From assembly GCA_024278555.1 (NCBI GenBank), contig JAJRSX010000001.1, positions 1 to 20,815 on the forward strand: a stretch of 20,815 nt of DNA, written 5' to 3'. The first letter of the stretch is position 1. Every line of letters begins with the position of its first letter. Positions 18,367 through 20,815 of this stretch are shown here, piece by piece. The stretch is from a bacterium (GTDB taxonomy: Bacteria; CG2-30-53-67; CG2-30-70-394). A program made the position numbers and the translations under genes. The notes below the pieces were generated by a model, which saw only the letters and a program-made list of their open reading frames with translations, was not told where the DNA came from and did no database searches.

Positions 18367-19158
18367 ATGACCAAGATCCACCCAACCGCCGTCATCGAAG
18401 AGGGTGCCGAGCTCGCCGACGAGGTGGAGATCGGCCCCTTTGCCATGATCGGTCCTGAGGTACGCATCGGAGCGCGCACCGTCGTCGGCCCCCACTGCGT
18501 CATCCAGGGCGACACCACCATCGGTACGGACAACCGCTTTCACCAGGCGGTCTCGGTGGGCGACGTACCCCAAGACCTGAAATTTTCCGGCGAGCCGTCA
18601 AAGGTGCGGATCGGCAACCACAACACCGTCCGCGAGTTTGTCACCATCCACAAGGGGACCAAGGGCGACCAGATGGAGACCACCGTCGGCGACCACAACC
18701 TCATCATGGTCGGCGCCCACCTGGCCCACGACGTGGTGGTCACCCACCACTGCATCCTCGCCAACACCGTCGCCCTCGCCGGCCACGTCCACGTGGGCGA
18801 GTACGCCATCGTCGGCGGCCTCTCCGCGGTCCACCAGTTCGTCCGAGTCGGCCCCCACGCGATGATCGGCGGCGCCTCGGCGGTGGCCAACGACGTCCCC
18901 CCCTTTCTCACCGTCCTCGGCAACCGGGCCGTCGCCCAGGGGCTCAACCTGGTGGGGCTGCGACGGCGCAAATTTCCGCGCGACACCATCAACGCCATCC
19001 GCGACGCCTTCGAGATCCTCTACCGCTCCGCCCTCCCCCAATCCGAGGCCCTGGAGCGGGTCCGCGAAGAGATCCCCGACCTCCCGGAGATCCGCACCTT
19101 CCTCGACTTCCTCGACACCTCCACCCGCGGCATCGTCCGCTGCGTCGACTGCGTGTAG
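18367..19158 (+). CDS. lpxA: UDP-N-acetylglucosamine acyltransferase LpxA
   Basis: Encodes 263 residues (E. coli LpxA is 262). LpxA catalyses the first step of lipid A synthesis, moving a 3-hydroxyacyl chain from ACP to UDP-GlcNAc. The N-terminal two thirds is a left-handed beta helix of hexapeptide repeats (IHPTAVIEEGAEL, IGPFAMIGPEVRIG, VGPHCVIQG). QDLKFSGEP and FVTIHKGT are family signatures. The catalytic His is H121 in GAHLAHDVVV, equivalent to E. coli H125. The position matching the E. coli acyl-length ruler Gly173 is also Gly (HAMIGGASAV), compatible with a long (C14-type) chain, an inference. The C-terminal helices (INAIRDAFEILYRS) end in TRGIVR. AGGAAC lies upstream of the ATG. It stands alone: lpxD, fabZ and lpxB are not adjacent, unlike the usual cluster. 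Confidence 0.95.
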   Translation: MTKIHPTAVIEEGAELADEVEIGPFAMIGPEVRIGARTVVGPHCVIQGDTTIGTDNRFHQAVSVGDVPQDLKFSGEPSKVRIGNHNTVREFVTIHKGTKGDQMETTVGDHNLIMVGAHLAHDVVVTHHCILANTVALAGHVHVGEYAIVGGLSAVHQFVRVGPHAMIGGASAVANDVPPFLTVLGNRAVAQGLNLVGLRRRKFPRDTINAIRDAFEILYRSALPQSEALERVREEIPDLPEIRTFLDFLDTSTRGIVRCVDCV

Positions 19159-19171
19159 ACGCCCCGGCGAG

Positions 19172-19590
19172 GGGGAACCACGAAGAGCACGAAGAGCACG
19201 AAGGGCGAGGCGCTGACGAACGCCAGAGCGGCGGGACGATTTCAACGCCGAGGGAGAGAATTCAACGCAAAGGCGCAAGGGCACAAAGACGCAAAGGGAG
19301 GGCGTCGTCGGTGGTTGGCCGGGAGGTCGTGCCGAATGGGGTTTTTGACGCAGAGACGCAGAGGGGCGGGAGGCACGGAGGGGGGGGGCGTCGGGGAGCC
19401 GGCGTCATCGGTGCGGAGCCGGGCAGGGTGACGACCTTGAAGGCGGGCCTCGCGCAGAGAGGCGGGGACGCAGAGGGGGGAGATACGGGAGTCGGGCGTC
19501 ACCGGCGGATCGCCAGAGCACAGTGAGGGCCAGGAAGGCCAGGGTTCACCACAGCGACGCAGAGGACGCAGAGAACGGCATCGGAAGGGC
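19172..19590. repeat. degenerate low-complexity repeat tract (no gene)
   Basis: The 430 bases after lpxA consist of short purine-rich degenerate repeats. Copies of AGCACGAAG (19185-19201) come first, then GGCGCAAGGGCACAAAGACG (about 19271-19290), then GACGCAGAGACGCAGAGG (19349-19366), then further CGCAGAG units to ~19570, with a G9 run at 19380-19388. Such 'ACGCAGAG/CACGAAG' repeats are scattered between genes in several proteobacteria; their origin is unclear. Open frames here are by-products of the repeat. It marks the boundary between core chromosome and the right-hand accessory region. Confidence 0.75.
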
Positions 19591-20073
19591 CTACCGGCCC
19601 ATCACCCACCAAGGGGCTTTCCTCACCGTCCCACCCATCCTGTCAGTCCTGTCCATCCTGTCTGTGCGGTCCACGTCGGCGCGCGAGTAACCGTGGAGTA
19701 TAAGGTAAAGAACTGACCCCGAGCTACTGTGTTGATGCTTATGCCGGCGAGTGATTATATAAATAGTTGATGCAACGACAAGCACGCACAGGAGTATGAT
19801 GCCAATACCCATCTTCGACACCAGTGTGCTATCGTGGTTGATAGCCATTTTTCCTGCGGACAGTAAAGCGTCAACAACCCGGTTCATCTCTGCGGGAGTG
19901 GAGGCCCCATGGAGCGCGTCCGCCGCTGGTGGCAACACGGGCTTGTCACTCAGAAGGCTTCCGATGAAAGCGAAGAGTGAGCCGAAAGCCGCAGCCATGA
20001 AACCCCAAATGAAGGCCTGGATGATTGTCGGTCCGGAACTGGGTCGAGTTTGGTCTGGTGTTTCGTTACTCAT
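19591..20073 (-). CDS. two-helix membrane protein, 3' end rewritten by repeats (unknown)
   Basis: Encodes 160 residues as read. Residues 1-15 are polar; helix 1 is about 18-41 (FIWGFMAAAFGSLFAFIGSL); a loop of ~45 residues contains two amphipathic stretches (STPAEMNRVVDALLSAGKMA); helix 2 is ~88-107 (MGIGIILLCVLVVASTIYII), ending in RRHKHQH. From about residue 117 the product is translated repeat: GSVLYLILHG comes from a GGGGTCAGTTCTTTACCTTA motif, and DRTDRMDRTDRMGG from a TGGACAGGACTGACAGGATG-type repeat. The native C-terminus, and any attC that followed, is thus probably lost. A good AAAGGAG lies before the ATG at 20073. A palindromic attC-like site is immediately upstream. Family not recognised; it may be a decayed cassette gene. 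Confidence 0.55.
   Translation of the reverse strand: MSNETPDQTRPSSGPTIIQAFIWGFMAAAFGSLFAFIGSLLSDKPVLPPAADALHGASTPAEMNRVVDALLSAGKMAINHDSTLVSKMGIGIILLCVLVVASTIYIITRRHKHQHSSSGSVLYLILHGYSRADVDRTDRMDRTDRMGGTVRKAPWWVMGR
19701..19720 (-). repeat. GGGGTCAG-type dispersed repeat inside the 3' end of the membrane gene
   Basis: Read on the minus strand this is GGGGTCAGTTCTTTACCTTA. It resembles the GGGGTCAG(G/T)TCTT motifs that recur around REP-associated and IS200-like transposase elements in proteobacteria. No transposase is present here. It coincides with the point where the membrane protein stops looking like native sequence. Confidence 0.45.
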
Positions 20074-20109
20074 AAGGCTGTCTCCTTTGGATCGTTTCCT
20101 TCATCTATT

Positions 20110-20181
20110 GTCGAACGACCAAGCTGTGCGGCGCAAACGAAGCGCAGCGTAGTTTGCGTCCGAACGAGCGCCTTGTTATGC
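20110..20181 (-). other. integron attC-like recombination site (72 bp)
   Basis: Read on the minus strand the site begins GCATAAC (20175-20181, R''-type core), continues AAGGCGCTC, folds through GGACGCAAAC (20153-20162) against GTTTGCGCC (20131-20139), and closes with AGCTTGGTCGTTCGAC, whose last seven bases (GTTCGAC, 20110-20116) fit the R' core GTTRRRY with one mismatch. Order, orientation, length and imperfect palindromy are those of cassette attC sites. R'' begins seven bases after the stop of the upstream gene, and the next gene starts ~36 bases after R', both normal for cassettes. No integrase is in the window. Confidence 0.7.
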
Positions 20182-20188
20182 GTTTTGA

Positions 20189-20626
20189 TCATAGTGCTTC
20201 GACCATAAGTTCTAGCCCTAAACGACCCCCCTCCTCTAGTACGGCCTTTCGTAACCCTTTTTTGTAACGATTAGCCGCTTGTTCTGGACACACAAAACAA
20301 AAAGACTTTATCTGAGGTGTTGATTTATCCCTTGCAATCAATACCTTAAATACATCCCGATAAAACTCAAAATGATCATTATTTGGTGAAACTTTTAATT
20401 CGTAGGCTATACCTGCTTCCAAGTCTACAAGATCAATTCTTTCATTAAGATGATCTGCAATAGGATGTTCGGCAGAAAATCTATGAGGGTATCTTGATAG
20501 AACAGCATTTTGCCAATCCGTAGTTACTGCTGCTGCCAGCTTGTCCCCCGTCCCCGCATCGCCACTCATTCGCCAATGCTTGGAATGGGCCTCTCGACAT
20601 AATTGGATGACTGATTCATGGAGCAT
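20189..20626 (-). CDS. putative PD-(D/E)XK-fold protein, cassette-borne
   Basis: Encodes 145 residues in DNA clearly richer in A/T than the rest of the window. The central part reads ADHLNERIDLVDLEAGIAYE followed by LKVS, giving D65-x10-E76-x-K78, the D...ExK arrangement of the restriction-endonuclease-like (PD-(D/E)XK) fold. E76-L-K78 is on the expected second strand, and the next helix FEFYRDVFKVLIARDK fits the helix after the core. The N-terminal half (residues 1-50) is helical, and FCFVCPE forms a further strand. No DNA-recognition domain is evident. It may be a small nuclease or a non-catalytic relative; defence function is only inferred. The start ATG 20626 lies 11 bases after a GTTAGGC core, and the stop is seven bases before the attC, so the gene fills a typical ~460-bp cassette. 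No clear ribosome site. Confidence 0.65.
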   Translation of the reverse strand: MLHESVIQLCREAHSKHWRMSGDAGTGDKLAAAVTTDWQNAVLSRYPHRFSAEHPIADHLNERIDLVDLEAGIAYELKVSPNNDHFEFYRDVFKVLIARDKSTPQIKSFCFVCPEQAANRYKKGLRKAVLEEGGRLGLELMVEAL

Positions 20627-20637
20627 GGTTTATATAC

Positions 20638-20690
20638 GCCTAACGCTGATTCGACGGATCCTCGTAATATGCGTGGATCTGGTTGTTGTC
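20638..20690 (-). other. second attC-like core (GTTAGGC) upstream of the cassette gene
   Basis: On the minus strand GAATCAGCGTTAGGC (20638-20652) matches the 3' end of many attC sites (GCGTTRRRY), and GTTAGGC is a perfect R' core. Upstream, GGATCCG and CAGATCC (about 20655-20661 and 20675-20681) could form the inner arms of a short stem. The left core is not convincing (GACAACAAC near 20682-20690). The right-hand core is solid; the full extent of the site is uncertain, and a reading frame runs through it. Confidence 0.45.
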
Positions 20691-20815
20691 CGTATAGCGT
20701 CCGTGATCGTTCGTTCTGGATTTACGGTAACTCTTTGTATTCATTCTTTGTGGGTTGTCCCGCGGAAGTTCGAAGGGGGGTTTATGCGGGTCGTCATAGC
20801 ATGCCTCCTTCCGGA
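20640..20815 (-). CDS. 3' end of an unidentified reading frame running in from the right edge
   Basis: A minus-strand frame is open from the window edge (first full codon ending at 20813) for 57 codons to TAG at 20640-20642. The product is very polar, with YDDPHKPPFELPRDNPQRMN, then TKSYRKSRTNDHGRYTDNN, and ends AYYEDPSNQR. The stop codon is inside the GTTAGGC core. An alternative ATG at 20797 has an excellent AAGGAGG but in another frame, giving only 18 codons. One extra C in the run at 20775-20780 would join it to this frame as a 52-residue protein. No family recognised. It may be the end of the preceding cassette gene or of the gene into which cassettes were inserted. Confidence 0.35.
   Translation of the reverse strand, partial: RKEACYDDPHKPPFELPRDNPQRMNTKSYRKSRTNDHGRYTDNNQIHAYYEDPSNQR

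Follow-up and report, generated by a model that had tools for sequence, protein, structure and literature searches.

We analysed a 20,815-nucleotide stretch of bacterial DNA (the window), which is one entire contig (C73), and found at its right end what appears to be the remnant of a chromosomal integron, a platform for the capture of genes. The features at this end all lie on the minus strand and are read from position 20815 down to about 19600. In this order they are the last codons of a truncated integron integrase gene (intI), a putative attI region, a complete gene cassette with its attC site (cassette 1) and a truncated second cassette (cassette 2), which ends at a dispersed genomic repeat. 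The remainder of intI lies on another contig, C121.

Results

The 72-bp site has the properties of an attC

A 72-bp site at 20110-20181 (minus strand) separates two small co-oriented open reading frames (ORFs) and is delimited by the cores GCATAAC (R'', 20181-20175) and GTTCGAC (R', 20116-20110). A first-pass annotation, made from the letters alone, had described this site, a GTTAGGC core and both ORFs at exactly these positions and had proposed an integron cassette array. It had suggested folding of the bottom strand as a check; the single-strand folding energy of the site was ordinary compared to shuffled sequences (z -0.57 and +0.31), such that the palindrome by itself would prove little. 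Because the folding energy was uninformative, a set of attC sites was collected and the arms and stem were scored instead. Seven of the sites belong to resistance cassettes of annotated plasmids and the other eight to arrays in the loci analysed here; each was checked against its source. The arm scorer trained on these 15 sites combines stem energy with a score for the 25-base arm at either end; the window site was excluded from training. A simple R''/R' pairing filter was dropped after it missed the site, which has poor R''/R' pairing and offset L arms, and the arm scorer took over.

The window site received an arm score of 57.2. Known attC sites, each left out in turn, scored 39-77, and 150 dinucleotide shuffles of the window gave a maximum of 47.3 and a median of 29. 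No other candidate in the window exceeded 38. A second set of 15 attC sites, largely overlapping the first and again without the window site, served to build a covariance model (R1). The covariance-model search proposed in the annotation found the site, matching 20110-20181 end to end with 40.6 bits (E 3.8e-7); Rfam yielded no match anywhere in the window. From these scores, together with the core-bounded homology described below, we conclude that the 72-bp site is a genuine attC as judged from its sequence. Its bottom strand is predicted to be the recombination substrate of IntI. The sharp change in base composition that had been noted was also confirmed. Toward this end of the window G+C decreases from about 0.67 to 0.51, and third-position G+C is 0.31 in the ORF of cassette 1 (ORF 20626-20189) compared to 0.91 in lpxA and 0.94 in ppdK; the composition here is thus foreign to the genome.

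Cassette 1 occurs in other arrays and hosts

Cassette 1 (20116-20643, minus strand) is 528 bp long, measured between the cut points in the attI core and in the attC, and DNA similarity to its relatives is bounded accordingly. Its gene (20189-20626, minus strand) encodes a 145-residue, probably PD-(D/E)XK nuclease-like protein with the motif D65/D68 ... E76-x-K78. Relatives of the product were found in a gammaproteobacterial clam symbiont (L034, 88% identical) and in a Planctomycetaceae metagenome-assembled genome (MAG; L035, 89%). A third relative, about 70% identical and with an internal stop, is present in a Gallionellaceae MAG (L036). In L035 and L036 the copies belong to series of clear attC sites, and the genes next to them differ. 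DNA similarity between L035 and the window (80% identity) runs from the CGTT core preceding the gene to GCATAACAAG in the 5' arm of the attC, and nothing aligned outside these limits. In the symbiont, DNA similarity extends from the ATG into the 5' arm of the attC, and that arm is decayed. The unit in the window thus has the order expected of an integron gene cassette, an ORF with an attC behind it and R' cores as module boundaries, and the same cassette recurs in the arrays of L035 and L036 and, with the decayed attC arm, in L034. As attC arrays around relatives, core-bounded similarity and copies in different lineages are marks of a mobile cassette, this comparison identifies ORF 20626-20189 as a real mobile cassette. 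Codon differences between the window copy and those of L034 and L035 comprised 54-59 silent and 16-18 amino-acid-changing substitutions; the preponderance of silent differences argues for purifying selection on the protein family.

The host range given here is a minimum from one scan of named genomes. Plasmids, phages and viral contigs were searched and contained no relatives of cassette 1. One further candidate (L037) was dropped as a chance match around HPNNDHFEFY within a larger, different protein. The Gallionellaceae gene copy (L036:6001-6435) has its in-frame stop at codon 55, and the remainder is still conserved. Around the relative of cassette 1, the planctomycete array (L035:1584-8429) has some seven attC sites in which short palindromic and long types are mixed, a strong sequence variety for a single array.

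The adjoining integrase gene is truncated

The first-pass annotation had expected the array to continue to the right of 20815 and had placed any intI there. Integrase sequence was indeed found just past the contig end; no further attC was present on C121, and the right end of the window proved to be the integrase-proximal end. Window positions 20675-20815 are identical to C121:13324-13184 (141 bases, reversed), which is the kind of end overlap that a k-mer assembler leaves at a branch. The last intI codons occupy 20794-20815 (minus strand) with the stop TGA at 20796-20794, the remainder lies on C121 (L010:12640-13205, plus strand), and the translation (P0003) ends ...GPEGGML* within the overlap. 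The fragment matched the integron-specific model TIGR02249 over positions 136-315 with 259.6 bits, below the curated cut-off of 265 bits, and is 77% identical to the full-length IntI of a relative from the same class. Its alignment to IntI4, whose structure is known (2a3v), starts only at residue 140, and its first in-frame start codon is a TTG at C121:12750. No trace of the N-terminal half was found upstream on C121 or elsewhere in the near-complete genome. We conclude that intI, as read from the contig, is without its N-terminal half and the first catalytic Arg, which we take to be the equivalent of R135 of the Vibrio cholerae integrase. The full-length integrase with all catalytic residues that a complete functional integron possesses is therefore missing.

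C121 is continuous from ppdK across the deletion point into the 3' part of intI. On the other side of the join, lpxA (18367-19158, plus strand, convergent with the array) forms the left chromosomal flank, as identified by Pfam hits and by synteny with contig C113 of a genome of the same genus (G001). In G001 ppdK and lpxA are adjacent, and the 270 bp that separate them contain no integron, while in our genome the gap on the joined contigs is 3050 bp. That these genes are neighbours in G001 provides independent support for joining C121 to C73.

The putative attI region and the reverse layout

The putative attI region (20638-20793, minus strand) has the core GTTAGGC at 20644-20638, which lies 150 bp past the intI stop and is separated by 11 bases from the ATG of ORF 20626-20189; the full extent of the region is likewise putative. 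GTTAGGC occurs twice in the window, so the weight of the core rests on its position. In two class relatives with full-length intI, a GTT core lies 176 bp (L043, genome G005) and 166 bp (L044, genome G004) past the stop, and the attC sites are oriented as intI, the same layout as here. The 3' end of intI on C121 (plus strand) faces the attI core, and the cassettes follow in the same sense. This transcription of intI toward attI, in the direction of the cassettes, is the arrangement defined as a reverse integron in Treponema (PMC3607928), and it is kept in L043 and L044. Full-length IntI is encoded in four other genomes of the class (G003, G004, G005 and G006); no attC was found beside it in G003 and G006. 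The reverse layout is already known, and here the remnant has it in common with these class relatives.

Cassette 2 is truncated by a dispersed repeat

Cassette 2 (19721-20115, minus strand) contains the start of ORF 20073-19591, of which about 118 residues are of cassette origin, and lacks a closing attC. This ORF is co-oriented with the cassette 1 gene, has a plausible ribosome-binding site (AAAGGAG) at its start, downstream of the attC, and encodes two hydrophobic stretches that, read by eye from the translation, resemble membrane helices. Residues 116-160 of its translation correspond to a dispersed repeat of the genome (19545-19720, plus strand) that ends at ATAAGGTAAAGAACTGACCCC and truncates the cassette. 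Copies of the repeat with 84-87% identity are present on C97 and C149, and the ATAAGGTAAAGAACTGACCCC motif is also found on C199 and C148. Neither the arm scorer nor the covariance model detected a second attC in the window. The repeat-derived tail of the ORF and the lack of a further attC together indicate that cassette 2 is truncated. No relatives of the ORF were found in plasmids, viral contigs or the class.

Dispersed and partly tandem intergenic repeats (AACGCAAAGGCGCAAAG..., TCCTGTCAGTCCTGTCCATCCTGTC...) are abundant in this genome, occurring at 19180-19720 of the window, at L010:11820-12010 and in L014 and L015. The ATAAGGTAAAGAACTGACCCC motif with reiterated TGACCCC-plus-variable tails is present on many contigs and possibly represents elements of the repetitive extragenic palindrome (REP)/REP-associated tyrosine transposase (RAYT) type.

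Predicted fold of the cassette 1 protein

An AlphaFold2 model of the 145-residue protein had a pLDDT of 74 with a shallow alignment. The modelled order of elements is helix-helix-strand-strand-helix-strand-helix-helix-strand. VIA-align matched it mostly to restriction endonucleases and other PD-(D/E)XK proteins, the best being BamHI (Z 9.8 over 127 residues, rmsd 3.6), and the best Foldseek match was EcoT38I (E 0.039). The motif IDLVDLEAGIAYELKV supplies D65/D68, E76 and K78, residues that are identical across the aligned relatives. A PADLOC match to Cas10d (E 0.009) and a Pfam match to PTase_Orf2 (E 0.18) were too weak to use. The model suggests that the cassette 1 product likely adopts a PD-(D/E)XK nuclease fold; that it may act in restriction or phage defence is a guess. 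The protein resembles BamHI/BstYI-type nucleases (PDB 1bhm, 1sdo) in its predicted fold over most of its length and in the D ... E-x-K motif. It differs from them in its small size of 145 residues, an identity of 9-12%, the lack of an adjoining methyltransferase partner and the lack of a Pfam family.

Other attC sites and integrases

A genome-wide covariance search scored 150 of 5964 candidates, with the window site outside these, and the attC tallies per genome are lower bounds. A second, solitary attC-like site in our genome (L058, G000:C199:3468-3597, minus strand; 36.4 bits, arm score 63.5) lies immediately upstream of two small genes that together look like a MazE/MazF toxin-antitoxin system. 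G001 carries at least four attC sites, each alone on its own contig (L079, L080, L081 and L082, on C144, C48, C31 and C18, respectively); one of them adjoins type I restriction-modification-like genes. No integrase match was obtained in G001 at E 1e-40. Plasmid pB of the cyanobacterium Kovacikia minuta (L047) encodes a full-length integron integrase that shares 59% identity with the remnant. Its attC-like sites are close to genes for hypothetical proteins and for a DNA cytosine methyltransferase.

Discussion

We conclude, with a probability of roughly 0.92, that a chromosomal integron which had inserted between ppdK and lpxA has left its remnant here, with a truncated intI, a putative attI core, one complete cassette and a truncated second one. 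The locus is not the distal end of an array that runs on to the right, as first proposed; the second cassette is cut off on the left by the repeat, and the putative attI and the 3' end of intI lie at the right. The annotation had also named three outcomes that would speak against an integron, namely no covariance-model match, no further site or integrase nearby and a conserved syntenic gene pair. None of these was obtained: the model matched, integrase sequence adjoins the window, and the ORFs form no such pair, with relatives of ORF 20626-20189 beside other genes and ORF 20073-19591 without a class relative.

Several observations weigh against our conclusion. The attI region was called from position and core alone, a promoter for cassette 1 was sought and none was found, and R' (GTTCGAC) deviates by one base from GTTRRRY, although GTTC cores are present in other sites of this dataset as well (L043, L035, L080). 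In addition, since the assembler did not merge C121 and C73, there is probably a branch at the join caused by strain variation, and other array variants may exist in the population. The integron could then be intact in the living population; the truncated intI would belong to one strain or be an artefact of assembly, and the array would vary at the break point. The ending of both contigs at a shared 141-mer, as at a graph branch, and the full-length IntI in four other class genomes are consistent with this explanation. However, C121 shows no interruption anywhere between ppdK and the 3' part of intI, the deletion point included, and the N-terminal half was searched for and not found elsewhere in the near-complete genome; we consider an intact integron improbable.

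A solitary cassette might instead have inserted off-target at a secondary site, with the integrase fragment nearby by coincidence. The single attC sites on four contigs of G001, which occur without intI, and the lone site beside the MazEF-like pair on C199 are compatible with such an event. As the cassette begins at the GTTAGGC core 150 bp past the intI stop, as in the two class relatives with intact intI, a coincidence of this kind is very unlikely. The simplest alternative, that there is no integron and that a chance imperfect palindrome lies between two small genes, fits the ordinary folding energy of the site but is refuted by the covariance model and arm scores, the cassette-bounded homology in other lineages and the adjoining integron integrase, and we give it practically no weight.

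For the integron remnant we propose the following history. An intact integrase would have acted on the folded bottom strand of attC, and circular cassettes would have been joined into attI downstream of intI in the reverse layout. A later deletion would have removed the N-terminal half of intI, including the first catalytic Arg, and a rearrangement involving the dispersed repeat may have removed the distal end of the array. By itself the platform would now be incapable of cassette capture or excision, and cassette 1 would survive as an ordinary resident chromosomal gene.

The locus resembles known systems in part. It shares with the integrons of Treponema denticola and its relatives, whose layout has been termed atypical or reverse (PMC3607928, PMC4909258), a putative attI core of the GTTRRRY type between intI and the first cassette, but belongs to another lineage, has lost the N-terminal half of intI and retains only one complete cassette. 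The deletion in intI, not the layout, separates the remnant from its class relatives. Xanthomonas provides documented cases of integrase loss in which residual arrays persist (PMC12444791), and there a truncated integrase beside a short array likewise fits cassette loss after integrase inactivation; those integrons are downstream of ilvD, whereas the remnant lies between ppdK and lpxA. The locus also shares an attC without a functional integrase with clusters of attC sites lacking integron integrases (CALINs; PMC9024848, PMC8618304), for which loss of intI is one proposed origin (PMC8618304) and two attC sites are the current default (PMC9024848). It differs in its single attC and in an intI remnant and a putative attI that are still recognizable. 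The window and C121 together contain one attC with integrase sequence adjoining, where a CALIN would have at least two and no integrase nearby. With its single attC, the locus is best called an integron remnant and not a CALIN.

The remnant is a well-known kind of element with a dead enzyme, and in this respect fairly ordinary. A more far-reaching view, doubtful at present, is that integrons of the phylum ancestrally had the reverse layout and lost the integrase repeatedly while cassettes persisted, and that cassette 1 is the founding member of a small, new family of stand-alone nuclease cassettes that cross phyla via integrons and possibly serve in phage defence. Sampling of the phylum is thin (8 genomes). 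Our findings extend the record of reverse-layout integrons, and of how they decay, to a lineage from which very few genomes are available. The locus offers a natural case of decay, in which a dead integrase and a retained cassette from a family under selection can be compared with an integron-free sister locus. Functional work on nuclease-like cassettes could well start from the retained gene, whose product has 88-89% identical counterparts in the clam symbiont and the planctomycete.
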